This document shows, one piece after another, positions 8,534 to 37,950 of a stretch of 64,000 nucleotides of DNA. The DNA lies in assembly GCF_025628885.1 (NCBI RefSeq), contig NZ_JAOTIF010000021.1:1-64000 (forward strand), written 5' to 3'. Both the position numbers and the translations under genes were made by a program. This DNA is from Paraflavisolibacter caeni. GTDB taxonomy: Bacteria; Bacteroidota; Bacteroidia; Chitinophagales; Chitinophagaceae. How positions within the stretch are numbered: position 1 is the first letter of the stretch; each line of letters starts with the position of its first letter. The notes under the pieces were generated by a model that was not told the DNA's origin, searched no databases, and saw only the letters and a list, made by a program, of their open reading frames with translations.

Positions 8534-8535
8534 CC

Positions 8536-18704: not shown

Positions 18705-18716
18705 AACATTACCATT

Positions 18717-20180: not shown

Positions 20181-20196
20181 TCCTACTACTATTTAT

Positions 20197-20238
20197 AAAA
20201 GATCCTTTCAATTGTAATATTGGTAGGATCTTTTTTTT
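20197..20238 (+). terminator. Rho-independent terminator after SusD
   Basis: AAAAGATCCT and AGGATCTTTT pair perfectly across an 18-base loop, followed by a run of eight T in all. It should end or weaken transcription between the SusC/SusD pair and the enzyme genes, giving the transporter a higher dose than the hydrolases. Confidence 0.85.
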
Positions 20239-20248
20239 AAATTACTCC

Positions 20249-21640
20249 ATGAATAAAATAACATTTTTTGCACTCATACTTATTCTTTGCATAGGTTGCA
20301 AAAACTCTTCTAAGAGTGACACGGCAATGGAAGTATGGTTAACTGATCCTGTCAAAAACATATTATTTGCAAAGCAGTCTCTAGGCAATATTACTGCAAC
20401 AGGAACAGTGCCGGCAATTGAAGTTAATGAAAAAGAAACCTTCCAAACTATTGATGGCTATGGCCATGCTTTAACTGGCGGCAGTGCGTTTCATTTGTAT
20501 AACATGGATGCCGCTACGCGTGCAGCCCTGCTGAAAGAATTATTTGCTACAGATGGCAACAATATAGGTATAAGTTATTTACGGGTGAGTATAGGTGCTT
20601 CTGATTTGGACGACCATGTTTTTTCTTACGACGATTTGCCGGTAGGACAAACAGATACTGCTATGGAAAAATTCAGCATAGCGGAAGATAAAAAATGGTT
20701 GATCCCTGTTTTAAAAGAAATACTGGCCATTAATCCTGATATAAAAATATTGGGATCGCCCTGGTCGCCACCTGCATGGATGAAAACTAACGACAGCACA
20801 AAAGGTGGTAGTTTAAAACCTGAATATTACAATGCTTATGCGAAGTACTTTGTAAAATACATACAAAGCTTAAAGGCGGAAGGCATCAATATAGATGCCA
20901 TCACTATTCAAAACGAACCCTTGCATCCTGGCAATAACCCCAGCCTGTTAATGTTGGCAGAGCAGCAAGCCGCTTTCCTGAAAAAAAGTTTAGGGCCGGC
21001 ATTCAGGGCAGCAGGCATCACTACAAAAATTATTTTGTACGACCATAATGCGGACAGGCCCGATTATCCCATGAGCATTCTTGCGGATAAAGAAGCAGCG
21101 CAATATGTTGACGGTTCTGCCTTTCACTTGTATGCAGGATCAATAGATACGCTTTCCAAAGTGCACGAGGCTTTTCCTGATAAAAATCTTTACTTCACTG
21201 AGCAATGGGTGGGAGCGCCCGGCAACCTGCCAGAAGATTTAAAATGGAATGTAAAAAATCTACTTATTGGCGGTGCAAGAAACTGGTGCAAAAACTATTT
21301 GCAATGGAACCTGGCAGCCAACTCAAAATGGGAGCCGCACACTCCCGGCGGTTGTACGGAGTGTTTGGGAGCCGTAACCATTGACGGCAACCAGGTAAAA
21401 AGAAATCCAGGGTATTACAACATTGCGCATGCATCAAAATTTGTGCGTCCCGGAAGTGTGCGTATTGCATCTACTATGCCGGAAGGCTTGCCCAATGTGG
21501 CTTTTAAATCACCAGACGGTAAAAAAATTTTGGTAGTATTAAACGAAGCTCCTGCATTAAAATCATTTAAGGTTCTGGATGATGGCAAAAGTTTTTCCAT
21601 TGCATTGAATGCAGGCGCTGTAGCAACATTAGTGTGGTAA
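20249..21640 (+). CDS. GH30-family glycoside hydrolase, lipoprotein
   Basis: 463 residues with a lipobox (LCIGC), so probably lipid-anchored and possibly surface-facing. The GH30 fold shows IDGYGHALTGGSA near the N-terminus, LGSPWSPPAWMKTN, the acid/base E223 in QNEPLHP and the nucleophile E318 in FTEQWVG. A C-terminal beta-sandwich segment follows (KFVRPGSVRIAST). GH30 enzymes of Bacteroidetes cleave beta-1,6-glucans or glucosylceramide-like substrates. It precedes the GH3 gene by 31 bases, suggesting endo plus exo action on one beta-glucan. Confidence 0.93.
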   Translation: MNKITFFALILILCIGCKNSSKSDTAMEVWLTDPVKNILFAKQSLGNITATGTVPAIEVNEKETFQTIDGYGHALTGGSAFHLYNMDAATRAALLKELFATDGNNIGISYLRVSIGASDLDDHVFSYDDLPVGQTDTAMEKFSIAEDKKWLIPVLKEILAINPDIKILGSPWSPPAWMKTNDSTKGGSLKPEYYNAYAKYFVKYIQSLKAEGINIDAITIQNEPLHPGNNPSLLMLAEQQAAFLKKSLGPAFRAAGITTKIILYDHNADRPDYPMSILADKEAAQYVDGSAFHLYAGSIDTLSKVHEAFPDKNLYFTEQWVGAPGNLPEDLKWNVKNLLIGGARNWCKNYLQWNLAANSKWEPHTPGGCTECLGAVTIDGNQVKRNPGYYNIAHASKFVRPGSVRIASTMPEGLPNVAFKSPDGKKILVVLNEAPALKSFKVLDDGKSFSIALNAGAVATLVW

Positions 21641-21671
21641 TCACTCACCAGATAACCGGTAACAGGCAACC

Positions 21672-23903: not shown

Positions 23904-23960
23904 TGAGCATGATTTGGAGCTTAAAGGGAATTTGAATAGAAGTTTTATACTCACAACAAT

Positions 23961-24620
23961 ATGATAAAAAATATCATCATACTGTTTATTGCTTTTTTGA
24001 GTGTCACGGATCTTTTCTCACAAGAAAAACCTTTCTGGAATGATATTCAAAAATTCAAAGAGAGTGATAGATTCAATCCGCCTGTGCAAAAAGCCATTGT
24101 GTTTATTGGTAGTTCATCTTTTGCTATGTGGCATGATGTACAGGACTACTTTCCCGGCTATACCATTATCAACAGGAGCTTTGGTGGCTCCACATTGCCC
24201 GATGTGACAGGTTATTTAAATGATATTGTGTTTCCTTATCATCCCAAACAAGTCGTGATATATTGTGGAGATAATGATTTGGCTAATTCGGATACAATTA
24301 CAGCGAACGAGGTATTGCAGAGATTCAAACTTCTATTTCAAAAAATACGCAAGCAACTTCCCTCCATATCCATTGTATATGTTTCTATAAAACCAAGCCC
24401 AAGCAGGAAACATTTAATGACAAAGGCCGCGCAGGCCAATATAATGATACAGAAATACTTAAAGACTCAAAAAAATACCAGCTTTGTTGATGTGTATCAT
24501 AAAATGCTTAATAAAAACGGAAGCATAAGAAGCGATATTTTCTTGCAAGACGAATTGCACATGAATGCAAAAGGATATGCCATCTGGAAACAGGCGATAT
24601 TACCGTATTTAAAAAAATGA
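23961..24620 (+). CDS. Secreted SGNH/GDSL-family hydrolase
   Basis: 219 residues. A signal peptide (about 1-20, ending LFSQ) precedes FIGSSSFAMW (block I serine), NRSFGGS (block II), YCGDNDLAN (block III) and DELHMNAKGY with the catalytic Asp and His. It resembles the lysophospholipase/PAF-acetylhydrolase group, which often serves as carbohydrate esterases in polysaccharide loci. It may remove acyl decorations from the glycan so that the GH enzymes can act. Confidence 0.9.
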   Translation: MIKNIIILFIAFLSVTDLFSQEKPFWNDIQKFKESDRFNPPVQKAIVFIGSSSFAMWHDVQDYFPGYTIINRSFGGSTLPDVTGYLNDIVFPYHPKQVVIYCGDNDLANSDTITANEVLQRFKLLFQKIRKQLPSISIVYVSIKPSPSRKHLMTKAAQANIMIQKYLKTQKNTSFVDVYHKMLNKNGSIRSDIFLQDELHMNAKGYAIWKQAILPYLKK

Positions 24621-24660
24621 ATTTTATCCGTCTTTGTGTGCAACCACAAAACGTAATATT

Positions 24661-26127
24661 ATGAAACATTTTTTATTTACATTGATGATGGGTTTGACAA
24701 CCAACATCATGCTTGCACAAACAAATGAGCAAAACACACAGGCAGAAAGCTCATTTCAACTCCACAACAAAAAGGCCACCGTGTACATGACAGCGAATAA
24801 CACAAATTTTCATTTATCAGTTACCGAAACACTTCAATTTACAGACTTTGTGCAACCTAAGGAAACCGACATTAGTATATTTGTTGACCCTACACACCGT
24901 TTCCAAACTTTTATAGGAATGGGTGGCGCCTTAACAGACGCATCAGCTGAGACATTTGCAAAATTGCCTAAAGACAAGCAACAAGAATTATTGAAAGCAT
25001 ACTACGATCCTAATGCGGGTATAGGCTACACTTTAGCAAGAACTAATATGAACAGTTGCGATTTTTCCAGCGGTAGTTATACATATGTAAAAGATAATGA
25101 TAAAGAGCTAAAAACATTTAGCATAATGCATGACCAACAATACAAAATTCCATTTATAAAACAGGCAATTGCTGCAGCAGGTGGAACGCTAAAACTGTTC
25201 ATCAGTCCATGGAGCCCGCCAGCCTGGATGAAAGATAACAACAATATGCTGCGTGGTGGAAAATTGAAACCTGAATATTATCAGTCATGGGCAAACTATT
25301 ATGTGAAATTTATCAGGGCTTATGAAAAATCAGGTATTCCGGTATGGGGACTCACTGTGCAAAATGAACCTATGGCTACACAAACATGGGAATCGTGCCT
25401 TTACACAGGAGAAGAAGAACGTGACTTCATAAAAAAATACTTAGGGCCTACATTGCAGAAAGAAGGATTAAGCAAAAAAAAATTAATTGCATGGGATCAC
25501 AACAGAGACCTCATGTATCAAAGAGCTTCTACGGTTTTAAACGACCCCGATGCTTCCCAATACGTGTGGGGTATCGGTTATCACTGGTATGAAACCTGGA
25601 CAGGTGCAGGCATGCAATTTGACAATGTGAAAAGAGTAGCAGAAGCATTTCCCGGCAAAAATTTGATTTTTACTGAAGGTTGTATAGAAAAATTTAATAT
25701 AGAAAAAACTAATGATTGGGCTTTGGGTGAAAAATATGGCCGTTCTGTGATAAATGATTTAAACAGTGGTGCATCAGGCTGGACAGATTGGAATGTACTG
25801 CTTGATGAAACAGGTGGCCCAAACCATGTAGGTAACTTTTGTTTTGCACCTGTTCATGCCAATACAAAAACAGGTGAGTTGATTTATACAAATGCTTACC
25901 ACTACTTAGGTCATTTTTCAAAATTCATTCGTCCCGGTGCAAAAAGAATTATATCATCCTCAAGCCGAGACGTGTTGCAAACAACGGCGTTTATCAATGA
26001 ATCAGAACAATTAGTAGTAGTGGTACTAAACTTATCTAATGATAAAATTCCATATTACTTATGGATAAAAGGAAAAGCCGCTAAAACAGAGAGCTTGCCT
26101 CATTCCATAGCAACCATAGTGATATAG
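24661..26127 (+). CDS. GH30-family glycoside hydrolase, secreted
   Basis: 488 residues from the ATG at 24661, which begins a signal peptide (MKHFLFTLMMGLTTNIMLAQ); the upstream ATG at 24634 would put a polar nonapeptide before it. Landmarks are FIGMGGALTDASAE, SPWSPPAWMKDNN, acid/base E236 in QNEPMAT and nucleophile E339 in FTEGCIE. No lipobox, so it should be soluble in the periplasm. It differs strongly from the first GH30 of the locus and is closer to the glucosylceramidase/beta-1,6-glucanase group, so the two probably cut at different places. Confidence 0.93.
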   Translation: MKHFLFTLMMGLTTNIMLAQTNEQNTQAESSFQLHNKKATVYMTANNTNFHLSVTETLQFTDFVQPKETDISIFVDPTHRFQTFIGMGGALTDASAETFAKLPKDKQQELLKAYYDPNAGIGYTLARTNMNSCDFSSGSYTYVKDNDKELKTFSIMHDQQYKIPFIKQAIAAAGGTLKLFISPWSPPAWMKDNNNMLRGGKLKPEYYQSWANYYVKFIRAYEKSGIPVWGLTVQNEPMATQTWESCLYTGEEERDFIKKYLGPTLQKEGLSKKKLIAWDHNRDLMYQRASTVLNDPDASQYVWGIGYHWYETWTGAGMQFDNVKRVAEAFPGKNLIFTEGCIEKFNIEKTNDWALGEKYGRSVINDLNSGASGWTDWNVLLDETGGPNHVGNFCFAPVHANTKTGELIYTNAYHYLGHFSKFIRPGAKRIISSSSRDVLQTTAFINESEQLVVVVLNLSNDKIPYYLWIKGKAAKTESLPHSIATIVI

Positions 26128-26175
26128 AGCTGGCACTTGGTCGACAGACCATATTATTGTATAAACAGAAAGAAT

Positions 26176-28374
26176 ATGAAGCCGTTTTATTGTGTACTAC
26201 TTTTCATTTTTCTTACCATTAACGCCTTCGCTCAGGTTATTTTATTTGATACTAAGTGGCGCTTTACGATGGGCGATAATCCCGAATATAAAAATGAATA
26301 TTACAACGATAGAAATTGGCAACAAGTAGTGGTACCTTCTTCTGCCAAAGGGCGTGAAGGCCTTTGCTGGTACAGGGTGCACTTCAATGTGCCCAAACAT
26401 ATGACTGGCAAAGAACTTGTTTTATTTGCGGGAACCATTGATGCAGCCGATGAAACATTTGTCAATGGAAAGCTGGTAGGAAAAAGCGGCAAATTGCCTC
26501 CAAAAGTGGAAACTGCATGGGATGTGGAAAGGCAATATTCAATTCCTGCAGGAATTGTAAAAGAAAATAATACCATGGCTATTCGCATGTACACGGCACC
26601 GGCCATTGGTGGTATTTACAAGGGAAGACTGGCTTTGATGACAAAAGAAACCTATGAGAAAGAGAAAAAGGAATTAGCGCTTAAAAAGCAATCTTATTTT
26701 CAATTAACTACTTCCAATGGATTAATTTCTGCAGTATATAATAAAGAAACGAATAGAGTGGAAGCAGTATATCCTCACATTTTCAGCGATTATGATTCTG
26801 CAAAATTTGTTGAACCTTTTTTGTACAATGTTGAATTAAAGCAATCTCAGCAACCTGTGTCTGTAAAATATGTTGCCAATACGCATGTCATTGAAGTGAA
26901 GTACAAAAATTTTACTGTAAATTATTTTGCATCTTTTACAACTGGCGAAAAAATATTTTATGCAGTGGTGAAAGGAGTTCCTTCAATTGTTAAAAATATT
27001 TCTTTTAAATACGATGAAGGAAAAGCGCAGGTACAATTAAATGAATGCACTATTATTAAAAATGGTATTGCAGAAAAATATTTTCTATTTGGGTTCACCA
27101 ATGGCTTGCATATTGATGCTACTGTTTTAGAAAAAGAGAGGGCAAGGCTATTACAAAATAATGCATCGTTGTTGACAGAAGAAATACAATATTTGCAATT
27201 GGTGTTTGCACGTTGCCATATACCAGCCAATGCAACTGCTGATGAAAAAAATCTTTTACAACAGTCAGTTTCATTTTTAAAAATGTCGCAGGTGGCAGAA
27301 CAGGAAATATTTCCTTACTCACATGGACAAGTAATTGCTTCTTTGCGTCCGGGTGCATGGTGTATAGCATGGGTGAGGGATGGTTCATTTGCTATTGCTG
27401 CTATGGCAAAACTTGGCATGCATGAAGAAGCAAAAAAAGGATTGGAGTTTATGCTGAAAGCACAGCCCTCTGGGCGTTTCGTGCACTATATTTTCCGTGA
27501 TGGAAAGGATTACGGCATTGGTGTGGATTATCAAATCTCGGCAACACGTTATTTTGGCAATGGCAAAGAAGAATGTGATTTTAATGAAGATGGCCCCAAT
27601 ATTGAAATTGATGACTTTGGACTTTTTCTTTTTGCATTGGATGAGTATATGAAAAATAGTAACGATGTGGAATTCTATAAAAGATGGGAACATGTATTAG
27701 CAACAAAAGTAGCAGATGCAATTGTTCACAATATAGATACCAATGGATTGATACGAAGAGATTCTGGCCCTTGGGAACATCATTTGCCAGGAAGGCAATA
27801 CACCTTTACTTCGGGAGTATGTGCCGAAGGGTTAAAACGCTTTGCTTTATGGCAAAAAAAGCTTGGATACAATTGGCAAAAATATTCTGATGCTGCAGAA
27901 CGACTTTATAATGGCATTGTGCAACACACATTGTATGATAACCGCCTGATAAAAGGCAATGCCAATGACCAATTAGCCACCGACCATTATTTTTATGATG
28001 CAGGTACATTTGAATTATTTGCAAACGGGCTTATCACTAACAAAAAATTATTTGAAACACATATGCAGGCTTATGACAGTGTGTTGAAGGTAAAGGATGA
28101 TATTGGATACATACGCATTTTCAGCAATGATACCTATGAAAATCAGGAATGGCCTTTTGCAGACCTTCGTGTTGCTGTTGCACAAAAATATTTTGGCAAT
28201 AAAACGGTATCAAAAGCTTTGATTGATAAAGTTACAAAGTTGTCAAAAGCTAATTATAACACGATTCCTGAAATTTATAGACTTAAAGATTGTTATTTCC
28301 GCGGCGCTATTCCAATGGTGGGTTATGGTGCAGGAGCTTATGTGCTGGCGTTGCTGGATTATTATGGCAAATAG
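26176..28374 (+). CDS. Secreted GH15-like (alpha/alpha)6-barrel glycoside hydrolase with GH2-like N-terminal domain
   Basis: 732 residues from the ATG at 26176, which starts a signal peptide ending NAFAQ; an in-frame ATG 39 bases upstream gives a polar extension. Residues about 20-160 form a jelly-roll typical of GH2 sugar-binding domains (WYRVHFNVP, FVNGKLVGKSG). The C-terminal two-thirds is an (alpha/alpha)6 barrel with WCIAWVRDGSFAIAAM, IDDFGLFLFAL, RRDSGPWEHH and TFTSGVCAEGL, recalling glucoamylase-type enzymes. The acid residues in WVRDGS and PWEHH are catalytic candidates. Last gene of the polysaccharide locus. The exact family could also be one related to GH15. Confidence 0.8.
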   Translation: MKPFYCVLLFIFLTINAFAQVILFDTKWRFTMGDNPEYKNEYYNDRNWQQVVVPSSAKGREGLCWYRVHFNVPKHMTGKELVLFAGTIDAADETFVNGKLVGKSGKLPPKVETAWDVERQYSIPAGIVKENNTMAIRMYTAPAIGGIYKGRLALMTKETYEKEKKELALKKQSYFQLTTSNGLISAVYNKETNRVEAVYPHIFSDYDSAKFVEPFLYNVELKQSQQPVSVKYVANTHVIEVKYKNFTVNYFASFTTGEKIFYAVVKGVPSIVKNISFKYDEGKAQVQLNECTIIKNGIAEKYFLFGFTNGLHIDATVLEKERARLLQNNASLLTEEIQYLQLVFARCHIPANATADEKNLLQQSVSFLKMSQVAEQEIFPYSHGQVIASLRPGAWCIAWVRDGSFAIAAMAKLGMHEEAKKGLEFMLKAQPSGRFVHYIFRDGKDYGIGVDYQISATRYFGNGKEECDFNEDGPNIEIDDFGLFLFALDEYMKNSNDVEFYKRWEHVLATKVADAIVHNIDTNGLIRRDSGPWEHHLPGRQYTFTSGVCAEGLKRFALWQKKLGYNWQKYSDAAERLYNGIVQHTLYDNRLIKGNANDQLATDHYFYDAGTFELFANGLITNKKLFETHMQAYDSVLKVKDDIGYIRIFSNDTYENQEWPFADLRVAVAQKYFGNKTVSKALIDKVTKLSKANYNTIPEIYRLKDCYFRGAIPMVGYGAGAYVLALLDYYGK

Positions 28375-28977
28375 TTTGGTGATGGTTTCATATGTATGTT
28401 ATATTTCATGTCTCATGCTTCTTCAAACCAACACAGTGAAAGATGTTAGAATGATCTATAAACTGAACTTTTGCCTGAAGCAGAATTCAATAGGAATAAT
28501 TCTTATGAGATTTAAGGGATCTACCTAAATACCTGGGGGATGACGAAGGGGAATTTGAAAATTGGGTGAGGGGAATGATATTAGGAGATTGGTGGGGGAA
28601 AAGTGGTTTTCTAGGCTTTTCCTAGGCTTAGCTATGGATTGAGTAGGGCTTAGGTAGGGCTGAGGAACGAAAGATCAGGGGTAGGATGATGAGAAAGACC
28701 AGGGATTGGCATCTGCCAGAGACGGACACGGGACGAATCAAGAGACGGGGGAGTCTGGGGATGGGAAATAAATGTGCTTTGGAACGAAGGTGGCATACTG
28801 TTGTCCTACTCTAGGTATACTGATGGTATGCTTCAGGTATACTTGAGGTACGAAGGATCCCTACTCGGAAGCTGGAGTTGGGGCGGACAAAAGCGGTCAT
28901 TTCCTGCCATTTGCTGCCAAAACGGCCAGGAGGTTTTTGGTTGTGGATGGGTAGGAGTAGCTTTAGGGGATAAATGG
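28375..28977. other. G-rich spacer after the polysaccharide locus
   Basis: No secure gene. From about 28530 the plus strand is very rich in G (runs such as TGGGGGA, GACGGGGGAG) with short repeated words such as TAGGCTTAGC/TAGGGCTTAGG and GGTATACT. This skew continues into the low-complexity ORF that follows and marks the border between the polysaccharide locus and the decayed mobile patch. Confidence 0.6.
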
Positions 28978-29601
28978 ATGAGCTATATGAATCAGGTCTA
29001 TATCAATAGTAAAGAAAGGGTGGTGATCAAGGATGGCAAAAAGGTACCTAGACTGCTGTTGGGCATGATCCGGGGTACGATTGGGAAGTGTTTTGTGGTG
29101 AAGCATTATAGGGGGAACAAGAAAAAGAAGTGGAAGAAAAGGATCGTGATCACCAAGTACCCGGACATGAGTGGCATAGTGGCCAGTGAAAAGCAGAGAG
29201 TAAGGAGGGATCTGTTTAAGGAGGCAGTGGTGTATGCCCAGTGGGTCCTCTCGGATCCAGAAAGGAAGGAGACATTCAGGAAGACATTACCCAGGAAGAA
29301 GAGGAAGCATGTCTACCAGGCGGCTATCCGGTTGTATATGAGGATGCAGGGGGATAAGCAGTGGCTGAGGAAGCAGCTGGCGGTGAGGGGGATGATGAGC
29401 ACAGGCAGAAGGGAGATGGTGGAGTTTGTGAATGGGCAATGGTCAATGGTGAATATTGGAGGGAGGTGTGCTGGTGGGTTGAATGGTGGGGAGCAGGTGG
29501 GAGCCTGGAGGGTGGTGTGGCAGAAAGAAGAGGCAGTGGGGCTTGAGGTGGGGGATGTTTATAGAAAGGAACCGGAGGGTTTAGAAGTATTGCAGATTTA
29601 G
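28978..29601 (+). CDS. Hypothetical basic protein in a G-rich island
   Basis: 207 residues from the ATG at 28978; the frame is open further upstream (to 28774) but that part looks like translated spacer. The central part (about residues 20-130: GTIGKCFVVKHYR, ITKYPDMSGIVASEKQR, RDLFKEAVVYAQ) is rich in Lys and Arg and has the look of a real, conserved protein; the last 60 residues are Gly/Val/Trp-rich and reflect the G-rich DNA. I recall proteins of similar sequence in several copies in Chitinophagaceae, but no function. The true end may be earlier. Confidence 0.5.
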   Translation: MSYMNQVYINSKERVVIKDGKKVPRLLLGMIRGTIGKCFVVKHYRGNKKKKWKKRIVITKYPDMSGIVASEKQRVRRDLFKEAVVYAQWVLSDPERKETFRKTLPRKKRKHVYQAAIRLYMRMQGDKQWLRKQLAVRGMMSTGRREMVEFVNGQWSMVNIGGRCAGGLNGGEQVGAWRVVWQKEEAVGLEVGDVYRKEPEGLEVLQI

Positions 29602-29864
29602 AAAATGGTGTAGAAGGAAGGAGTTAGTTTTTGTTGTTTTCAGATGAGCACTACGCTGCTTGATACAATGAAGCACCTTTTGCCTCTGATGGGAAGGTCC
29701 TGTATCATCTTTTTTGAAGTGGCGAGTTCAAAATAATTTAAGATGACTTTTATTAGTATGGTTGCAAGTAAATGCCGGTATTGTTCTTCCCAATGTCCAC
29801 TCATTGGTGAACTGCAAAAATCAACATTTAATCCTCATCCCCCAAGTATTTAACTTGATCCCTG

Positions 29865-30074
29865 ATGATTGCTCAGAACATCAGTGGGTTGTGGCTTTCC
29901 AGTGATTTTGAATGGAAGCAGAAGTTGCAGTATTTAGTGTTTCCTGAAGGAGTGGTGTATAGCAAGAAAAATGAGGCAGTTCGAATCGGAAGGATCAATA
30001 GTTTATTTGCTGCCATTGAGCCATTGAAGCGGGATTTGGAGGAAAATGAAAAAGAGGCTGTATCAAAAGTATGA
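29865..30074 (+). pseudogene. C-terminal remnant of a serine recombinase
   Basis: 69 codons: LSSDFEWKQKLQYLVFPEGVVY followed by VRIGRINSLFAAI. This is the usual C-terminal end of Bacteroidota resolvase-type (large serine) recombinases; the catalytic and zinc parts are gone. Its last codons (EKEAVSKV) are made by the left arm of the MITE-like inverted repeat that begins at 30052, so the original C-terminus has been cut by that element. Confidence 0.75.
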
Positions 30075-30164
30075 TATAGCCTCTTTTTATTCGGGTAGGT
30101 GATGGAATCGATTTTCATTTACGCGATTCTCAGTGCCTTCATTTTACTTTTGATACAGCCTCTT
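30052..30164. mobile_element. MITE-like element, 113 bp with perfect 20-bp terminal inverted repeats
   Basis: AAGAGGCTGTATCAAAAGTA at 30052-30071 is exactly complementary to 30145-30164. The inside has no coding capacity. GAGGCTGTNTCAAAAG-like ends are known to me from insertion sequences of Bacteroidota, so this may be a non-autonomous derivative or an internally deleted copy. No clear target duplication is visible on its flanks. Confidence 0.6.
30054..30088 (+). terminator. Hairpin with T run within the MITE-like element
   Basis: GAGGCTGTATC (30054-30064) pairs with GATATAGCCTC (30073-30083) with one G-U pair over an 8-base loop, then TTTTT. The left arm is shared with the terminal repeat of the element. 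It can act as a terminator for plus-strand transcripts reading from the recombinase remnant. Confidence 0.6.
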
Positions 30165-30496
30165 ATATCAAGGTCTGTGCCCAGAACAGGTACAATACTA
30201 TTTAGCTGAAATGCTGTTCTAATAAGGATTTCAGTGTTTTCTTATTGTTGTCAAGGTGTAATTAGGGTGAAAAAACTGTAAAAACTCTATAAAAAGGCAT
30301 CTTGCTTATTATTTATTCTTGTGAGTTTTTATAAACTTTTGCTTGCTTCTTTCAGTGAAGTCGCCAGCTCCCCGCTGCAAAACAAATCGGCGTGTCGGGG
30401 GGTATAAGATACGCAAAAATCGGTAGCAACCCAGCTACAAAAGCGGCTGCAGTCGCGTGTGAAAATGCTTGCAATAATTTTTCATCTCCAATTACA
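30165..30496. other. Spacer between the MITE-like element and the excisionase-like gene
   Basis: 332 bases. The left half is AT-rich; from about 30355 it becomes GC-rich (CGCCAGCTCCCCGCTGC) and continues in frame into the excisionase-like gene, without a family resemblance in that extension. I see no further feature. Confidence 0.5.
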
Positions 30497-30742
30497 ATGG
30501 ACTTTACTAAAAAAGTGCTTACGTTAAGCGAAGCTTGCGCTTATACGAGGTTTGTTAAGAGCTACATGTATAAAAGGACAATGGCCGGAACCATCCCGTG
30601 CAGTAAGCCGAACGGCAAGGCCATATTCTTTGACAGAGAGGAGCTCGAGCGATAGATGCTTAGTAAACCAAAGGTCAGCCTTGCCGAGTCGCAGACACAA
30701 GCAGCCACTTATCTTACGACTAAAGCCGGAGGTTCAAGATGA
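30497..30742 (+). pseudogene. Excisionase-like HTH protein gene with in-frame amber stop
   Basis: The ATG at 30497 opens a small helix-turn-helix protein of the excisionase/MerR type: VLTLSEACAYTRFVKSYMYKRT, then GKAIFFDREELER. At that point, where relatives have Trp (ELExWL), there is TAG at 30653-30655. The frame continues after it with MLSKPKVSLAESQTQAATYL and ends at TGA 30740-30742, which looks like the normal C-terminal part. So one base (TGG to TAG) breaks an 81-codon gene. A 52-residue protein is still possible and would keep the DNA-binding part. Confidence 0.7.
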
Positions 30743-30970
30743 CAGCCCTCCAGCACTTAAACGAGCTTGCCACAAACGCAAAGCGGGCAGAAGTATTCAG
30801 GCGTTCCTGCTAACTGGATACCCATAGCACGATTTAGAGATAAAACCGCTAATGTGCTAACCAGGTCAATCATAGCATTCCTAACGTTTGAAGGCCACCA
30901 CAGCGAAAGAATCAGCATTGTGAGCAGGCAGATTAACGGCAAGTGCACTGCTGCTGATGCCTGCAAATAG
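30739..30970 (+). pseudogene. Frameshifted small mobile-element gene
   Basis: The ATG overlaps the stop of the excisionase-like gene (ATGA). It reads MTALQHLNELATNAKRA and then leaves the frame; dropping one G near 30790 joins it to KYSGVPANWIPIARFRDKTANVLTRSIIAFLTFEGHHSERIS, with a stop at 30968-30970. The segment RDKTANxLTRxIIxFL..GHxxERIS is familiar to me from small proteins of Bacteroidota integrative elements and phages, sometimes continuing into a nuclease domain, which is missing here. Function unknown. Confidence 0.65.
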
Positions 30971-30999
30971 TTGACGATTTATTCATTGTTTCGCCATAG

Positions 31000-31032
31000 C
31001 GGCAAACCCATCTGTTGGCTGCCGTTTTTTTT
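31000..31032 (+). terminator. Possible terminator before the sugar-acid operon
   Basis: CGGCA and TGCCG, with additional AAC/GTT pairing inside, are followed by a run of eight T. The stem is short and imperfect, so activity is uncertain. It would insulate the next operon from the decayed mobile patch. Confidence 0.45.
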
Positions 31033-31226
31033 GCCAACAATGTTTACTGTCAGCAAATTTACCTGTCCAATAAAAGATAGCAAGTATAGCTAGATTATTG
31101 TGATAAGAAACTGATTAAAATCACTTTGGATTAAAATGGATGCCTGCATATTTTTATATCTAGAATACCCCCTGCGTCATGCTTGCTTTTCCATTAAAAG
31201 AAACAACTGAATAAAAAATATAGATA

Positions 31227-32297
31227 ATGAAAATAGGTTTTGGATTATATAGTCATATGCTTACTAATGACTATTACAAAATGGCAAAACAATTGGGAGC
31301 TACTCATATCGTTGCCCATCTTACGGATTACTTTCATCAAAGCGATACAGGTGCCGACGATCAACCTTTAGGAAATGTTCATAAAGGTTGGGGTATAGCT
31401 AAAGAAGCCCAAATATGGTCCTATGAAGAACTGATTGCTTTAAAAAGGGATATTGCCAAGCACGGGTTGATACTTGAAGCCCTTGAGAATTTTAGCCCTG
31501 CTTTTTGGTATGACATTTTACTGGATGGACCAAAGAGAGATGAGCAGTTGTCAAATCTCAAACAATTACTAAAAAACATGGGTAAAGCAGGTATTCCTAT
31601 TATGGGGTATAACTTTTCGCTGGCTGGAGTGGCTGGCAGAACCATAGGCCCATATGCCAGAGGAGAAGCATTGTCTGTAGGGCTTGAGGGCTATTCAGAA
31701 GCATTAGATGTCCCTATTCCAAGCGGGATGATATGGAATATGATTTATGATACCGATGCTCCTAACGAAAATATCGAAACCATAACTCACGTAGAACTTA
31801 TGAAGCGATACAAGCACTTTATAAATGAAATGATACCAGTAGCAGAAGAGGCTGGCGTAAAACTAGCAGTCCACCCAGATGACCCTCCACTTAAAGAAGT
31901 AAGGCGGCAACCAAGATTGGGATATCATCCAGATCATTATAAAGAAGTAATGGAACTTGACCAAAGTTCGAGCCATGTAATGGAACTATGTTTAGGAACC
32001 ATGGCCGAAATGGAGGATTCTAATATATATGAGGCATTGGAATATTTTGCAAAGAACAATAAAATTGGATACATACATTTCCGTAATATCAAAGGAAAGG
32101 TACCCCATTATAAAGAGGCATTCATTGATGACGGTGATATAGATATGGGAAAAATAATTAGGATATTACGAAAGCACAAATTTGAAGGTGTCCTTATTCC
32201 CGACCATGCACCTCAGGTTACAAGCAAAGCTCCCTGGGATGTTGGCATGGCATACGCTATGGGATATATTAAAGCATTAGTGGATACTATAAAATAA
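31227..32297 (+). CDS. Mannonate dehydratase-like TIM-barrel enzyme (UxuA family)
   Basis: 356 residues, somewhat shorter than typical UxuA (about 390). Landmarks are GWGIAKEAQIWSYEEL, the KLAVHPDDPPL motif near residue 215 that is characteristic of UxuA, CLGTMAEM and HFRNIKGKVPHYKEAFIDDGDIDM, which hold metal ligands His and Cys. UxuA removes water from D-mannonate to give 2-keto-3-deoxygluconate. Here it opens an operon of two SDRs, a lactonase, a kinase and an enolase paralogue, so the substrate may be another aldonic acid. Confidence 0.9.
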   Translation: MKIGFGLYSHMLTNDYYKMAKQLGATHIVAHLTDYFHQSDTGADDQPLGNVHKGWGIAKEAQIWSYEELIALKRDIAKHGLILEALENFSPAFWYDILLDGPKRDEQLSNLKQLLKNMGKAGIPIMGYNFSLAGVAGRTIGPYARGEALSVGLEGYSEALDVPIPSGMIWNMIYDTDAPNENIETITHVELMKRYKHFINEMIPVAEEAGVKLAVHPDDPPLKEVRRQPRLGYHPDHYKEVMELDQSSSHVMELCLGTMAEMEDSNIYEALEYFAKNNKIGYIHFRNIKGKVPHYKEAFIDDGDIDMGKIIRILRKHKFEGVLIPDHAPQVTSKAPWDVGMAYAMGYIKALVDTIK

Positions 32298-32301
32298 AAA
32301 T

Positions 32302-33072
32302 ATGATAACAATAGATTTAAAAGACAAGACCATTTTAATGACAGGTGCTTTGAGTGGTATTGCGGATTATGTAATTAAAACTTTGATAGATGCTAATGCA
32401 ACACTCATTTTAACTGATAAGTGCAGTATTGAAGAAGCATATCCTATATTAAAAGCCAGAGGATTGTCAAATGAGAATTATTTCGCTATGGATGTAACAG
32501 ATGCGAATGAGGTTCGTGAAACCATAAAGTTGATTTTTAAGAAATGGCCTGATATAAATGTTGGTCTAGGACATGCTGGAGGTACAGGAATTAAACCTTT
32601 TTTGGAAGCCTCTACACTTGATTTTTATAATTTGGTTAATTTCAACTTTTTAGGTCAGGCTTACTTTGCACATGCCATAGCTAACGAATGGGTGGAGCGG
32701 CAAATTCATGGGCATTTAATTTTTACCTCAAGTTTTGTGAGTAGCATTCCCATGGAAGGGATTACTGCCTATACCTCATCTAAGGCTGGATTGGAAATGC
32801 TTATGAAAAACTTAGCCTTGGAATTTTCCAAATATAAGATTAGGGTAAATGCAGTCTCGCCTGGTAATGTTGCAGTAGGAAAATCCAAAGAATTGTATGA
32901 TAACGTTCCTGATTATAGAGCTTGGGTTGACAGGGTATCCCCTTTAGGAGCACGAAACACACCTGAAGCCATCGCGAACGCCTTTGCGTATCTATGCTCT
33001 CCATTGGCTAATGAATTACATGGACATGCGCTTTTAGTAGATAACGGTGTAGGATTACCTAAATTGGGTTGA
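32302..33072 (+). CDS. SDR-family oxidoreductase (fructuronate/mannonate reductase-like)
   Basis: 256 residues. TGALSGIADYV is the nucleotide-binding glycine motif (normal third Gly present, order TGxxxGI), the active site shows TSSFVSSIP and YTSSK (Ser, Tyr, Lys). The end HALLVDNGVGLPKLG is typical of classical SDRs. Located 4 bases after the dehydratase gene, as in uxuA-uxuB type pairs where the reductase acts before the dehydratase on a keto-acid. Confidence 0.88.
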   Translation: MITIDLKDKTILMTGALSGIADYVIKTLIDANATLILTDKCSIEEAYPILKARGLSNENYFAMDVTDANEVRETIKLIFKKWPDINVGLGHAGGTGIKPFLEASTLDFYNLVNFNFLGQAYFAHAIANEWVERQIHGHLIFTSSFVSSIPMEGITAYTSSKAGLEMLMKNLALEFSKYKIRVNAVSPGNVAVGKSKELYDNVPDYRAWVDRVSPLGARNTPEAIANAFAYLCSPLANELHGHALLVDNGVGLPKLG

Positions 33073-33074
33073 TA

Positions 33075-34133
33075 ATGGAACAGATATTCTATGTAGGATC
33101 ATATTCGAAGAAGGGAGGCTATTTTCCAAGAATTTCTGGAGAGGGCCTAACCAAATGTGCTTTAAATGTAAAAACAGGTGAACTGAAAAAAAAAGAATCA
33201 TATCAGGAAGTGCCAAATGCAACCTATTTGACGAAATATGGGAGTGAAATATTACTTGTGGCTTCGGATGAATATTATAACCCTGGCAATGTTTTATCTG
33301 TTGCTTTACAAAAAGATACATTAGTACCATTGTCATCGCAGAGTACACATGGTGCGGCTACTTGTCATTTGAGTGTGAATGATGTAGTAGATATGGTTTT
33401 TGTTGTTTCATATTTGGATAGTAGGCTTTCAGTGCATGATATGAAAGAAGGGAAACTGTCGCCGGCAAAATATGTTTATCAATATCAAGGTCATGGGCCA
33501 AATAAGGAACGACAAGAGCAGAGTCATGCTCACTGTGCGCAGGTTTCATCTGATGGGAAATGGCTCTATGTCTGTGATCTTGGTAGCGATAAAATATGGA
33601 TACATGATATTGAGAACCTTACTGGTGAGTTTACGGACGTAATAGGGATAACAGTGCCGTCGGGTTATGGTCCCAGACATTTGGTTTTTGGAGAAAAGTT
33701 CACCCATGTATATGTGATCTGCGAACTGAATGCACATGTGCTTACCTACAATAGAAATGAAGAAACGGGAATGTTGACACTAATAGATGATCAGGCAACT
33801 TTACCGGAAAATTATGATGGGATTCCTTCAGCCGCTGCAATTAGGATGCACCCCTCTAAAAACACTCTTTATATATCCAATAGAATTCATAATAGCATTG
33901 CCGTTTTTTCTATAAATAGGTTTACGGGAACATTAACTTTTGAAACCAGGATCGACACAGAAGGAAACGAGCCGAGGGATTTTGATTTTGATCCTAGTGG
34001 AGAATGGTTAGTATGTGCAAATCAGGATTCTGATACAATCGTATCAATTAAATTGGATGCTAATACTGGACTGCCGACTTCAGGCGTTAAATCGGTCTTG
34101 GAATGTGGAACACCGGTTTGCGTGCTTTTTTAA
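33075..34133 (+). CDS. Lactonase-family seven-bladed beta-propeller protein
   Basis: 352 residues; the ATG at 33075 is chosen over an in-frame TTG overlapping the previous stop. It starts FYVGSYSKKGGYFP and has the repeated blades of the 6-phosphogluconolactonase/3-carboxymuconate cyclase family (SHAHCAQVSSDGKWLYVCDLGSDKIW, GYGPRHLVFG, NEPRDFDFDPSGEWLVCANQDSD). Such enzymes hydrolyse sugar lactones to the open acids. No signal peptide, so cytoplasmic. It fits a step between a sugar dehydrogenase and an acid dehydratase. Confidence 0.88.
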   Translation: MEQIFYVGSYSKKGGYFPRISGEGLTKCALNVKTGELKKKESYQEVPNATYLTKYGSEILLVASDEYYNPGNVLSVALQKDTLVPLSSQSTHGAATCHLSVNDVVDMVFVVSYLDSRLSVHDMKEGKLSPAKYVYQYQGHGPNKERQEQSHAHCAQVSSDGKWLYVCDLGSDKIWIHDIENLTGEFTDVIGITVPSGYGPRHLVFGEKFTHVYVICELNAHVLTYNRNEETGMLTLIDDQATLPENYDGIPSAAAIRMHPSKNTLYISNRIHNSIAVFSINRFTGTLTFETRIDTEGNEPRDFDFDPSGEWLVCANQDSDTIVSIKLDANTGLPTSGVKSVLECGTPVCVLF

Positions 34134-34204
34134 TCTGAAATTAAGATATAATAATAACTCAAGACGGTTATATCATATTTAGGTCAATCTTAAAAGAAGT
34201 ATAT

Positions 34205-34981
34205 ATGTTTAGTTTGAAACAAAAAGTTGCCCTGGTGACAGGCGGTGGAGATGGAATTGGGAAGGCTATTTCCGAAACGTTGTCTAAACAAGGGGCAACA
34301 GTTTACGTGTTGGATGTAAATGTGGAAAATGGTGTGAGAACAGCAGAAAAGATTGTTGACAGTGGCTATTTGGCCTACTTTAAGCAATGTGATGTATCTA
34401 ACCAAAAGCAGGTAAAAAATGTGGTTGAAGACATTTATGACAAAGAGGGCAGAATCGATATTTTAATTAACAATGCAGGTATAGCCCATATAGGAACTGC
34501 CCTAACTACCTCGGAAGAAGATTTTAACCGAATCATTAATGTTAATGTAAAAGGGCTTTACAACTGTGTGCACAGCTGTATTCCGTTTATGAAGAAGACT
34601 GGAGGTGGTGTAATTATCAATATGGCATCAGCGGCATCAGTAGTTGGGTTACCCGATCGGTTTGCATATTCTATGAGTAAAGGAGCTGTTACCACGATGA
34701 CCTATTCCATAGCAAGGGATTTTGTTGGTTTTAATATTCGTTGCAATTGCATTTCGCCAGGTAGGGTTCATACTCCTTTTGTGGATGGATATTTAAAAGA
34801 GTACTACCCTGGAAAGGAAACCGAAATGTTTGAAAAATTATCAAAGACCCAGCCCATAGGACGCATGGGCACCCCAATGGAAATAGCAAATTTGGTACTT
34901 TATCTGTGCAGTGATGAAGCCTCGTTCATAACTGGTAGCAATTATCCAATAGACGGAGGATTCGTAACCTTAAATACTTAA
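34205..34981 (+). CDS. SDR-family oxidoreductase
   Basis: 258 residues of the classical SDR group: TGGGDGIGKA for NAD(P), NNAG, active-site Ser in NMASAASVVG and YSMSK. The acidic residue after strand 2 (VLDVNVENG) suggests NAD rather than NADP. It resembles sugar and sorbitol/fucose dehydrogenases. A 71-base gap before it could hold a secondary promoter. In this operon it may oxidise the sugar to its lactone. Confidence 0.9.
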   Translation: MFSLKQKVALVTGGGDGIGKAISETLSKQGATVYVLDVNVENGVRTAEKIVDSGYLAYFKQCDVSNQKQVKNVVEDIYDKEGRIDILINNAGIAHIGTALTTSEEDFNRIINVNVKGLYNCVHSCIPFMKKTGGGVIINMASAASVVGLPDRFAYSMSKGAVTTMTYSIARDFVGFNIRCNCISPGRVHTPFVDGYLKEYYPGKETEMFEKLSKTQPIGRMGTPMEIANLVLYLCSDEASFITGSNYPIDGGFVTLNT

Positions 34982-35056
34982 CAATAAAAAATTTTAATAG
35001 AATGTATTTACTACGATTTGGAGATAAAAACAAGGAAAAACCTTATTTGAGTAGTA

Positions 35057-36049
35057 ATGGGCCAAAATGAATTGATTGACTATTTGGTCAAAAAAAGAAT
35101 TCTTACTTCTTCCTCCGTTGAAGTAATAGCCTTAAGCGGTGGAGTGTCTTGTGAGATTTTGCTAATTAAAGAGGGAGACAACAAATTTGTGCTCAAGCGA
35201 GCATTGGCAAGACTTAAGGTAAAAGACGATTGGTATGCAGATGTAAATCGGAATAAGATTGAACAGAAATACATAAAATATGTTGCCGATTTTTTGCCCA
35301 GTGCGGTGCCAAAAATCCTATACAGCGATGACGAGCATCATTTTTTTTGTATGGAAATGCTTGACAACGGATTGACCAACTGGAAGGATCTGTTGCTAAA
35401 CAAGCAAATTAATTTGGAATATGCCGATACTGCAGGTAAAAATTTGGGCATCATACATAATAAGTCGAATGGAGACCCAATTGCTGAGAAGGATTTTGAT
35501 ACACTGGTTAATTTTAACGAACTGCGCATTGAGCCTTATTTGATCAAAACGGGTAAGCTTCACCCAGACTTAAGTTCCTATTTTTATGATGAGGCAATGC
35601 AATTGGCATCAACAAAGAAGTGCCTTGTGCATGGAGACTTTAGCCCTAAGAACATATTGATCGGCCCAAAACGATTTGTTTTACTTGACAGTGAAGTAGC
35701 TTGGTACGGAGATCCGTTATTCGATATAGCTTTCTTTTTAAATCACTTTTTTTTAAAGTCTTTATATATACCTGGGAAGGCAAATGAATTTATGGAATTG
35801 GCAAGGGTTGCCTTGAAGAGTTATATGTCAAATTCGGGCAATGTTATTGACGAAAGTTTTGAATACAGGTTAGTTCGCTTACTATTACTACTTATGTTGG
35901 CTAGAGTTGATGGCAAATCACCTGTTGAATATTTAAATACGAAACAACAGCAGATAGTGAGGGATTTTGTTTATCAACAATTGCGCAATGGCAGATTTGA
36001 CTTTGATGTTTTGATTACCCACTGGATAGAAACCATATCAAACTATTAA
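35057..36049 (+). CDS. APH-fold small-molecule kinase
   Basis: 330 residues with the aminoglycoside phosphotransferase fold: LSGGVSCEILLI as nucleotide loop, the catalytic HGDFSPKNIL loop (about residue 194), LLDSEVAWYGDPLFDIAFFL with the metal-binding Asp. The family also includes methylthioribose and homoserine kinases. There is no sign of resistance context. It sits 18 bases before the enolase paralogue, so it probably phosphorylates an intermediate that the enolase-like enzyme then dehydrates. Confidence 0.85.
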   Translation: MGQNELIDYLVKKRILTSSSVEVIALSGGVSCEILLIKEGDNKFVLKRALARLKVKDDWYADVNRNKIEQKYIKYVADFLPSAVPKILYSDDEHHFFCMEMLDNGLTNWKDLLLNKQINLEYADTAGKNLGIIHNKSNGDPIAEKDFDTLVNFNELRIEPYLIKTGKLHPDLSSYFYDEAMQLASTKKCLVHGDFSPKNILIGPKRFVLLDSEVAWYGDPLFDIAFFLNHFFLKSLYIPGKANEFMELARVALKSYMSNSGNVIDESFEYRLVRLLLLLMLARVDGKSPVEYLNTKQQQIVRDFVYQQLRNGRFDFDVLITHWIETISNY

Positions 36050-36067
36050 CAACATTAAAAGATAACT

Positions 36068-37351
36068 ATGAAAATAAAGCAAGTTGATGCTTATCAAATA
36101 TTTGATTCGAGGGGAAATCCAACTGTTGAAGTGGAAGTTACCCTCGAAAATGGTATAACGGGTTATGGTTTAGTTCCATCAGGAGCATCTACCGGACAAT
36201 TTGAAGCGCTTGAATTGCGAGACAACGATAAGGCCAAGTTTAGGGGAAAATCTGTTTTCAATGCCTTGACGCATATTAAAACGGAAATCGCGTCCTTGCT
36301 CATTGGTGAATCAGTATTTGATCAAAGCCAAATCGACAGGAAAATGATAGCGTTGGATGGCACTCCCAATAAGTCCCGCTTGGGGGCTAACGCCATTCTT
36401 GGTGTATCTATGGCGGTGTCCAAAGCTGGAGCCAATACAAAAGGAGTTCCTTTGTACGCTTATTTGGGAGAGGATAAAGGAAATTTAATTCCGCTCAATG
36501 AGATTCAAATTCTTGGAGGAGGGGCCCATGCCGATTGGGTTAATGACATTCAAGATTTTTTGGTAATCGCAATTGGTGCCAAAAGTTATGAAGAGACTCT
36601 CGAAATAACCCATAATATTTATCATGCCGCAGGCAAAGTAATGAAGGCATATGGAAAGTGTGTAGGTATTGCAGACGAAGGAGGATGGTGGCCAGACTAC
36701 AAAACAAATGAAGAACCTTTTGAGATTTTATTGGAAGCTATAAATAAGGCAGGATATGTAGCTGGAAAGGATGTGGCAATTTCATTGGATATAGCTGCAA
36801 GTGATCTTTATGATGGTAATAATTATAATTTACCGCTAGATAAAATGTCTTATACTCCCAACGAGTTTTACAAACTAATTAAATCATGGTGTGAAAAATA
36901 TCCGATAATCTCTATTGAAGATCCATTTGCTGATACTGATATTAATAATTGGAAACGTTTTGAAGCCGAGATGGGTACTAAAATCCAAATTATCGGTGAT
37001 GACTTGTTCACGACCAATATAAAGCGTATCGAGTGGGGTATTGAACAAAAATTGGCGAACTCAGTATTAATCAAACTGAACCAAATAGGAACGGTCACCG
37101 AAACAATTGAAGCCATACGTTTGACGCAGGAGGTGGGTTGGCTTCCCGTAATCTCTGCCAGATCGGGTGAAACAGAAGATGCATTTATATCTCACTTGGC
37201 TGTGGCCACTAATGCCGGACAACTAAAAGTTGGTTCATTTGCCAGAAGTGAAAGAATGGTTAAGTGGAACGAAAATATAAGAATTCAACGTCATTTGGGG
37301 AAGCAAGCCAAATTCATTGGTTCAGATATTTATAAAACCATATTGAAATGA
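36068..37351 (+). CDS. Enolase paralogue with altered active-site loop
   Basis: 427 residues, full-length enolase fold. Preserved: DSRGNPTVEVEV, SGASTGQFEA, GGGAHAD with H154, DEGG, LDIAASD and EDPF and GDDLF metal ligands, LIKLNQIGT with the catalytic Lys, and GQLKVGSFARSER. Changed: the usual SHRSGE loop is SARSGE (A364 for the His that contacts the phosphate-bearing substrate), and the Glu of DIQEF is D163. The operon of sugar-acid enzymes and an adjacent kinase suggests that it dehydrates a phosphorylated acid other than, or in addition to, 2-phosphoglycerate. A canonical glycolytic enolase is expected elsewhere in the genome. Confidence 0.92.
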   Translation: MKIKQVDAYQIFDSRGNPTVEVEVTLENGITGYGLVPSGASTGQFEALELRDNDKAKFRGKSVFNALTHIKTEIASLLIGESVFDQSQIDRKMIALDGTPNKSRLGANAILGVSMAVSKAGANTKGVPLYAYLGEDKGNLIPLNEIQILGGGAHADWVNDIQDFLVIAIGAKSYEETLEITHNIYHAAGKVMKAYGKCVGIADEGGWWPDYKTNEEPFEILLEAINKAGYVAGKDVAISLDIAASDLYDGNNYNLPLDKMSYTPNEFYKLIKSWCEKYPIISIEDPFADTDINNWKRFEAEMGTKIQIIGDDLFTTNIKRIEWGIEQKLANSVLIKLNQIGTVTETIEAIRLTQEVGWLPVISARSGETEDAFISHLAVATNAGQLKVGSFARSERMVKWNENIRIQRHLGKQAKFIGSDIYKTILK

Positions 37352-37851: not shown

Positions 37852-37866
37852 CTATTTTTGTTGTTG

Positions 37867-37950
37867 TGCCCAGGACTGGAATCGAACCAGCACACCCGTG
37901 AAGGCGGCAGATTTTGAGTCTGCTGCGTCTACCAATTCCGCCACCTGGGC
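37867..37950 (-). tRNA. tRNA-Leu (anticodon CAA)
   Basis: 84 bases on the minus strand. The acceptor arm GCCCAGG pairs with CCTGGGC, the anticodon loop CTCAAAA gives CAA and so reads UUG, a long variable arm typical of leucine tRNA is present, and the T arm contains GGTTCGATTCC. CCA is not encoded. tRNA genes are usual targets of integrases, but no repeated 3' end of this gene was seen elsewhere in the window. Confidence 0.95.

Follow-up and report, generated by a model that had tools for sequence, protein, structure and literature searches.

Enolase (phosphopyruvate hydratase) is one of the most conserved enzymes known, and by default its genes are annotated as glycolytic. In the GarL–GarR–GarK route for glucarate and galactarate, as in the lower branch of the non-phosphorylative Entner–Doudoroff pathway, an aldolase gives a three-carbon acid, and a glycerate kinase leads on to 2-phosphoglycerate and phosphoenolpyruvate (PEP). 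The roles of glycerate kinase in these routes are described in PMC2063504, which also sets out three classes of the enzyme: class I (PF02595), class II (MOFRL) and class III. The non-phosphorylating route 3 for L-fucose and L-rhamnose proceeds from L-fuconate and ends in pyruvate and L-lactate (PMC11199699). Here we examine a stretch of 64,000 nucleotides from Paraflavisolibacter caeni (positions 1 to 64,000 of contig NZ_JAOTIF010000021.1; hereafter the window), in which a six-gene sugar-acid operon ends in an APH-type kinase and an enolase paralogue. These last two genes are the conserved core of the operon. We conclude that the kinase–enolase module is real and widespread, and we assign to it, with moderate confidence, the conversion of glycerate, probably the L form, into PEP.

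The paired enolase shares with the glycolytic enzyme (TIGR01060) the fold, the metal ligands and the residues at positions E211, K345, R374, S375 and K396 of the yeast enzyme, but differs from it in three substitutions (E168D, a glycine-to-alanine change before the DEGG motif, and H373A), in forming a clade of its own, in usually lying beside an APH kinase and in being an extra copy in most genomes. Similarly, the kinase would carry out the same reaction as classes I–III, from glycerate to 2-phosphoglycerate, but has a different fold, of the APH/methylthioribose-kinase type; if confirmed, it would constitute a fourth class of glycerate kinase. The proposed sequence of steps resembles that of the GarL–GarR–GarK and non-phosphorylative Entner–Doudoroff routes, except that the kinase belongs to another family and is accompanied by a modified enolase. 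The L-fucose/L-rhamnose route 3 offers sugar dehydrogenase, lactonase and dehydratase functions like those of the operon, and relatives of its 2,4-diketo-acid hydrolase (in Paracoccus and Roseibium) and of its 4-dehydrogenase (in Roseibium) lie by the pair; unlike that route, ours adds a kinase and an enolase, implying a 3-hydroxylated three-carbon acid, and the window operon has a short-chain dehydrogenase/reductase (SDR) and no hydrolase. In a PMC library of open-licence papers we found no description of the kinase–enolase pair or of an enolase for L-2-phosphoglycerate.

A genome scan with an alignment of nine kinases returned at least 564 confirmed relatives, from which we took the best 80 loci and added four from genomes of the same family and four from plasmids. 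In 77 of these 88 kinase loci an enolase gene lay within 400 bp of the kinase on the same strand, so the conserved neighbourhood that the original prediction had proposed searching for does recur. Four loci had the enolase farther off or on the opposite strand (L041, L076, L108 and L113), and seven had none in the stretch (L036, L046, L064, L078, L083, L087 and L105), three of them (L036, L064 and L083) because the stretch stops just past the kinase. The distance matrices of the two proteins were correlated across 76 loci (Mantel r 0.70, with 0 of 2000 permutations as high), a value inflated by shared ancestry. The genome scan placed the pair in several bacterial phyla, and it is also carried on haloarchaeal plasmids; plasmid relatives of the kinase came from 37 records, including rhizobia, Rhodococcus, Persicobacter and haloarchaea, the weakest of them annotated as methylthioribose kinases. 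The closest partners of the window pair are in Flavivirga (78% identity for the enolase, 58% for the kinase), Flammeovirga, Persicobacter and Microbulbifer. Because only 5 of the 394 family genomes surveyed have a relative of the kinase at E 1e-10 (the window genome included), and because all 17 congeners have one strong enolase match each (G007 with a further match below the cut-off), lateral transfer is the probable source of the pair. A distant kinase relative on an Enterobacter plasmid (31% identity), with no annotated enolase within 8 kb in an incomplete gene table, is probably something else. At 7884–16906 of that locus (L173) it stands first in a series of genes encoding a U32 peptidase, an oxidoreductase, an aminotransferase, an iron-containing redox enzyme and an MFS protein, which may form a small biosynthetic cluster.

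By profile the window enolase is unremarkable, matching Enolase_C at 302.2 bits and Enolase_N at 182.3 bits and passing the NCBI equivalog model TIGR01060 (534 bits against a cut-off of 300). The genome holds a second enolase (G000:C15:132921-133769), which scores 438.6 bits against 303.3 for the operon copy on the same family model and keeps the canonical active-site residues. Comparing 76 full-length enolases from the kinase loci, the window included, with 31 canonical or housekeeping enolases, we found that three columns separate the two groups. The position of yeast E168 is Asp in 76 of 76 and Glu in all 31 controls; the glycine preceding DEGG is alanine in 76 of 76; and the position that we take to be yeast H373 is alanine in 75 and glycine in one (L089), neither of the last two changes occurring in any control. 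In the window protein these residues are D163, A202 and A364. Neither set varies at S39, H159, Q167, E211, D246, E295, D320, K345, R374, S375 or K396, S36 is Ser or Ala among the enolases compared, and the listed discriminating columns (at least 85% conserved in the altered set) include no new Lys or Arg. All five further plasmid pairs, two of them haloarchaeal, carry all three changes, and the annotated plasmid copies are named phosphopyruvate hydratase or enolase. The altered enolases form one clade, with an SH-aLRT value of 100 on the separating branch of a quick-method tree (42 altered and 35 canonical sequences, no bootstrap, one long branch, L074).

The Catalytic Site Atlas (CSA) list in PMC4922564 gives E168, E211, K345 and K396 as catalytic; the paired enolases keep the last three of this set for EC 4.2.1.11 and replace E168. 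In the Chloroflexus enzyme 2-phosphoglycerate is held by Glu165, Glu206, Lys338, Arg367 and Ser368 (PMC4450660), which places the E168 change at a substrate contact and the H373 change just before the substrate-binding Arg–Ser. E211 is the general acid for loss of hydroxide (PMC4450660), and since it is retained along with K345, K396 and the metal ligands, elimination of a hydroxyl is still to be expected. An AlphaFold2 model of the window enolase (pLDDT 92.0) is enolase-like throughout, with TMq of 0.90–0.97 to 50 solved enolases among the matches listed; the three closest PDB sequences to the altered enolase carry canonical residues. More than one enolase match was present in 46 of 48 other pair-bearing genomes, the exceptions being the metagenome assemblies G439 and G451 (the other enolase of G431 is in two pieces), so we do not regard the paired copy as the glycolytic enzyme. 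When the top-scoring enolase match was retrieved from pair-bearing genomes, all 19 sequences that could be read had canonical residues. These results uphold the earlier description of the operon's enolase as a paralogue, and they show that its catalytic residues have changed.

The kinase scores 42.3 bits on Pfam APH (cut-off 23.2), and HGDxSPKN, D211, E213, R65, K110, R157 and R283 are invariant in 20 aligned kinases. Its AlphaFold2 model (pLDDT 93.8) best matches 5-methylthioribose kinases in the PDB (TMq 0.71–0.80, 14–16% identity), and it shares their fold, but it falls well short of the MtnK model TIGR01767 (58.3 bits against a cut-off of 275). Pfam finds only APH in it, and neither PF02595, MOFRL nor the class III P-loop fold. 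Glycerate kinases of a known class were present in 18 of 21 pair-bearing genomes (PF02595 in nine and MOFRL in nine, without overlap), compared with 40 of 98 family-sample genomes (22 and 18, again without overlap), a comparison not matched for phylum.

To see what surrounds the pair elsewhere, we counted neighbour genes by tblastn in 93 other loci, either within 3 kb of the pair (near, 0.50 Mb) or only beyond (far, 0.82 Mb), with queries drawn from the same loci that were counted. Because matches overlapping an over-long kinase ORF (open reading frame) by more than 200 bp were dropped, which lost the 3-hydroxyisobutyrate-dehydrogenase gene of L070 and the aldehyde dehydrogenase gene of L048, the near counts of genes that might supply a substrate are lower bounds. 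Near and far counts were 19 and 3 for 2-hydroxyacid dehydrogenases, 9 and 2 for aldehyde dehydrogenases, 8 and 0 for HpcH/GarL-type aldolases, 5 and 3 for FAH hydrolases, 2 and 0 for IlvD/Edd dehydratases, and 2 and 1 for MR-type dehydratases. By the same measure SDRs (13 and 10), RraA (1 and 1) and SMP30-like proteins (1 and 2) were uninformative. At least one supply-type gene lay within 3 kb of the pair in 38 of the 93 loci. Such neighbours, namely aldehyde dehydrogenase, 2-hydroxyacid dehydrogenase, GarL-like aldolase, and keto-acid dehydrogenase with diketo-acid hydrolase, lead to a three-carbon hydroxy acid.

Individual clusters illustrate these routes, most clearly those of Vibrio hannami and of Paracoccus and Roseibium. 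In L042–L044 the operon consists of aldehyde dehydrogenase, kinase and enolase only. In Vibrio hannami (L063) the pair follows an ABC transporter (recognized by eye) and genes for a fucose-isomerase-like protein, a PfkB kinase, a class II aldolase, an epimerase-like protein and an aldehyde dehydrogenase, assigned partly by eye and all below equivalog cut-offs; the isomerase is a distant relative of sulfoquinovose isomerase, and the whole is a gene set for splitting a hexose into dihydroxyacetone phosphate and a three-carbon aldehyde. In Paracoccus (L171) and Roseibium (L174) the genes run in the order kinase, enolase, FAH protein and SDR, in the company of transporters and LacI. Their FAH proteins score 352 and 342 bits on NF053535 (2,4-didehydro-3-deoxy-L-rhamnonate hydrolase, cut-off 500), which makes them relatives but not members by cut-off, and that of Roseibium is nearest to L-2,4-diketo-3-deoxyrhamnonate hydrolase 8gsr (E 5e-79). 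The Roseibium SDR matches human DHRS6 (BDH2) first and then structures of L-2-keto-3-deoxyfuconate 4-dehydrogenase (structure codes and pathway in PMC11199699). In two Chitinophagaceae of one genus (L137 and L139) an IlvD/Edd-type dehydratase and an SDR come after the pair, together with an SMP30-like ORF recognized by eye; this layout has the same logic as the window, by way of unrelated enzymes. Haloarchaeal pairs lie amid a GarL-like aldolase, MR-type dehydratases, a DapA-family protein, a C-terminal-binding-type dehydrogenase and RraA. Separately, in Opitutaceae and another verrucomicrobial metagenome-assembled genome (L049, L052 and L070) the pair lies near MlrC-, aminotransferase-, RraA- or 3-hydroxyisobutyrate-dehydrogenase-like ORFs, mostly recognized by eye.

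We therefore tentatively favor a reading in which the pair is a mobile module that turns a three-carbon 2,3-dihydroxy acid, probably L-glycerate, into PEP; the substrate, its handedness and the product we infer. The kinase would phosphorylate the C2 hydroxyl of glycerate, and the altered enolase would remove water (the C2 hydrogen and the C3 hydroxyl) to give PEP, acting on 2-phospho-L-glycerate, a form that ordinary enolase should not take. That several clusters, such as L042–L044, combine the pair with a single dehydrogenase only points to a housekeeping metabolite such as PEP as its product. If so, the substrate of the enolase would be a 2-phospho-3-X-propanoate, and retention of E211 argues for X being a hydroxyl. 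L-glycerate is the likely acid because the D form is already provided for by known glycerate kinases and ordinary enolase, and a dedicated, altered enolase makes most sense if the ordinary one cannot take the kinase product, which points to L-2-phosphoglycerate. L-glycerate could arise from L-configured or otherwise unusual sugars, either when L-glyceraldehyde is oxidized or when a 2,4-diketo-3-deoxy acid is hydrolysed to pyruvate and glycerate; a reference title from 1979 quoted in PMC13406643 reports glycerate from L-galactose in mammals. The fuller claim, of an enolase subfamily that dehydrates 2-phospho-L-glycerate and is fed by a fourth, L-specific, APH-fold class of glycerate kinase, giving L-glycerate and L-sugars an entry to central metabolism in bacteria and haloarchaea, is possible but more doubtful. 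An enolase subfamily this widespread, with its altered active site and constant kinase partner, would provide a clear case of an enolase gaining a second function, would mean that a gene is misnamed in many genomes, and would open a way to PEP for L-glycerate or a close analogue.

In the window the pair closes a run of six tandem ORFs, all on the plus strand, separated by 4, −4, 71, 75 and 18 bp:

31227..32297, plus strand: UxuA-like (mannonate dehydratase family) sugar-acid dehydratase, 356 aa (Pfam PF03786)
32302..33072, plus strand: SDR 1, candidate sugar dehydrogenase, 256 aa (Pfam adh_short_C2)
33069..34133, plus strand: seven-bladed beta-propeller lactonase, 354 aa from TTG or 352 aa from ATG at 33075 (Pfam PF10282)
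34205..34981, plus strand: SDR 2, directly 5′ of the kinase, candidate 2-keto-3-deoxy-acid dehydrogenase or keto-acid reductase, 258 aa (Pfam adh_short_C2)
35057..36049, plus strand: APH-fold small-molecule kinase, proposed glycerate 2-kinase, 330 aa (Pfam APH)
36068..37351, plus strand: enolase paralogue with D163, A202 and A364, 427 aa (Pfam Enolase_N and Enolase_C)

The ORF positions and Pfam assignments confirm the six genes and their order as originally predicted, and they support both the sugar-acid label and the adjacency of a kinase to an enolase-like enzyme. The prediction that the operon has no transporter, aldolase or regulator was borne out on the plus strand, where no ORF of at least 100 aa remains between the six genes to encode one. 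The start of the lactonase is uncertain, as the ORF is listed from a TTG at 33069 and has an in-frame ATG at 33075. Promoter and terminator scans gave signals no higher than shuffled controls.

The other four genes look like a sugar-oxidizing front end. The UxuA-like protein scores 160.7 bits on PF03786 (cut-off 23.7) but only 91.8 on the UxuA equivalog model (cut-off 199.55), and in alignment with 3ban_A it keeps HPDDPP, a Cys-x-Gly stretch, H-x-RN and PDH, motifs that presumably hold the metal ligands. SDR 1 (adh_short_C2, 138.2 bits) reaches the cut-off of none of the 25 NCBIfam models listed out of 220, and its best PDB matches are two gluconate (5-)dehydrogenases and an SDR. The lactonase (PF10282, 312.6 bits; PDB relatives 3hfq, 3fgb and 3scy) is below the cut-offs of 6-phosphogluconolactonase models (118.9 against 370 bits for NF008258). 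SDR 2 (adh_short_C2, 217 bits) reaches the cut-off of one of the 25 NCBIfam models listed out of 235, the glucose 1-dehydrogenase subfamily model NF005559 (243.8 against 215 bits); it is 34% identical to the pair-linked Roseibium SDR, and L060 likewise has an SDR directly 5′ of the pair. Through SDR 1, the lactonase and the UxuA-like dehydratase, a sugar would pass by way of a lactone and an acid to a 2-keto-3-deoxy acid, from which SDR 2, with an aldolase or a hydrolase from another locus of Paraflavisolibacter caeni, would release the three-carbon acid.

The original prediction had read the six genes as one linear pathway, which is now less well supported: neither a UxuA-like gene nor a PF10282 lactonase was found within 3 kb of the pair in any of the 93 other loci, which lends no support to a fixed six-gene set. 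Relatives of the UxuA-like protein at 54–55% identity occur in eight other family genomes and as a second copy in the window genome, and 13 of the 394 genomes match at E 1e-30. Neither kinase nor enolase lies beside these genes in the nine stretches fetched from the family and the window genome, so the UxuA-like gene is part of a sugar-acid dehydratase cassette, here placed 5′ of the pair. SDRs, RraA-like ORFs and transporters accompany it in other stretches, and in L146 it adjoins KdgK- and Eda-like ORFs (by eye). The window genome's second copy (L149, G000:C24:54000-71000) lies with a PF10282 lactonase, RraA, an SDR and an MFS-like transporter, lacks the kinase and enolase, and may act together with the window operon. 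A functional link between the UxuA-like gene and the pair is nonetheless possible, as a close UxuA-like gene is held by three of the five pair-bearing family genomes (the window genome, G315 and G412, two of the three being congeners) compared with 9 of 394 overall; G315 and G412 carry the pair elsewhere than beside it.

Several observations weigh against L-glycerate as the substrate or against the proposed role of the module. No supply-type gene lies within 3 kb of the pair in 55 of the 93 loci, an upper bound given contig ends and over-long ORF calls. The commonest neighbour, the 2-hydroxyacid dehydrogenase (19 loci), belongs to a family that is usually D-specific and so favors D-glycerate or another D-hydroxy acid there. 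ORFs and Pfam revealed no aldolase, hydrolase or aldehyde dehydrogenase in the window operon, and no HpcH/HpaI aldolase was found in the window genome, in a search that did not extend to other aldolases or to FAH hydrolases. Within the family only three of five pair-bearing genomes have a glycerate kinase of a known class, the wider control being unmatched for phylum. Finally, the conserved K345 and phosphate residues do not obviously favor an L substrate, whose handedness we only infer. Some of these points would suit salvage of D-glycerate, in which the kinase would represent a fourth, APH-fold class of D-glycerate 2-kinase, with the enolase as a pathway-dedicated copy that converts D-2-phosphoglycerate to PEP and whose changes tune only kinetics or regulation. 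The 2-hydroxyacid dehydrogenases (PGDH- or glyoxylate-reductase-like), the GarL-like aldolases of eight loci, the 3-hydroxyisobutyrate-dehydrogenase-family ORF 5′ of the kinase in L070 and a PEP carboxylase gene two genes 5′ of the kinase in Rhizobium L041 all fit it. Such salvage does not account, however, for the fixation of three active-site changes or for an enolase accompanying the kinase, when the hosts possess another enolase (46 of 48) and in most cases a glycerate kinase of a known class (18 of 21), and we consider it unlikely. The conservative alternative in the original prediction, from glycerate through 2-phosphoglycerate to PEP, is a better match to the wider neighbourhoods than is a second dehydration acting on a long sugar acid, but plain D-glycerate is unsatisfying given the altered active site and the additional glycerate kinases, and L-glycerate reconciles most of the evidence.

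That second dehydration, the main idea of the original prediction, would have the kinase phosphorylate C2 of a C4–C6 aldonate and an enolase widened by H373A and E168D make the enol phosphate of a 2-keto-3-deoxy acid. The location of the changes, at a contact to 2-phosphoglycerate and just before the substrate-binding Arg–Ser, is in keeping with it, as are the UxuA-like gene in three of five pair-bearing family genomes and the presence near some pairs of three sugar-acid dehydratase families, UxuA-like (window), IlvD/Edd (L137 and L139) and MR-type (L170 and L175). Yet the enolase step would duplicate those dehydratases, the aldolase and diketo-hydrolase neighbours would yield three-carbon units from hexoses, and the clusters with only an aldehyde dehydrogenase (L042–L044) offer no user for an enol phosphate other than PEP, which makes this idea improbable. 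Another leaving group at C3 is very unlikely. Here a substrate such as 3-sulfolactate would be phosphorylated and then lose sulfite, yielding PEP in a reversal of the phosphosulfolactate synthase (ComA) reaction. The only NCBIfam match of the L063 isomerase at E 1e-10 is the sulfoquinovose isomerase SftI, in a gene set that we take to resemble sulfo-EMP (sulfo-Embden–Meyerhof–Parnas) operons; there is a gene for a putative sulfate exporter ~14 kb away from the Paracoccus pair, and a TauE-like ORF (by eye) ~1.2 kb 3′ of the enolase in L088. But that SftI match is far under its cut-off (99 against 700 bits), the hydroxide-loss acid E211 is kept in 76 of 76 enolases, whose listed discriminating columns add no Lys or Arg, and the diketo-hydrolase route would not yield sulfolactate from ordinary sugars. 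We give scarcely any credence to the enolase being the glycolytic enzyme, or a spare copy in decay, placed by chance beside a sugar operon. Its passing the equivalog model, and the failure to find another enolase in G439 and G451, would allow this; an accidental context, which the original prediction said would follow if relatives were the only enolases of their genomes, is rejected by the enolase counts in the window genome and the 46 others and by the separate clade, and a spare copy fits poorly with a pairing conserved over phyla and domains, uniform residue changes, an intact frame and an intact metal site.

Elsewhere in the window, a tRNA-Leu(CAA) gene (37866–37950, minus strand) lies 515 bp downstream of the enolase with its 3′ end towards the operon, a possible integration site; we do not claim a genomic island there, as no copy of the tRNA end was found elsewhere in the window. 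On the other side of the operon, 28500–31200 looks like the remains of a mobile element, with a strong GC skew (0.47 at 28500–29499), an ORF without a Pfam match (28774–29601) and a short excisionase-like helix-turn-helix reading frame near 30499–30655 (by eye). A polysaccharide utilization cluster occupies 15675–28374, with a TonB-dependent SusC-like receptor, a SusD-like protein (by eye), two GH30 and one GH3 enzymes, an SGNH-like protein (by eye) and a 745-aa protein without a Pfam match (26137–28374). At 28–9522 is a natural-product cluster, in which nonribosomal peptide synthetase genes (by eye) are followed by an FkbH-type protein (PF21211, 5005–6729) and an MBOAT-like ORF (by eye).

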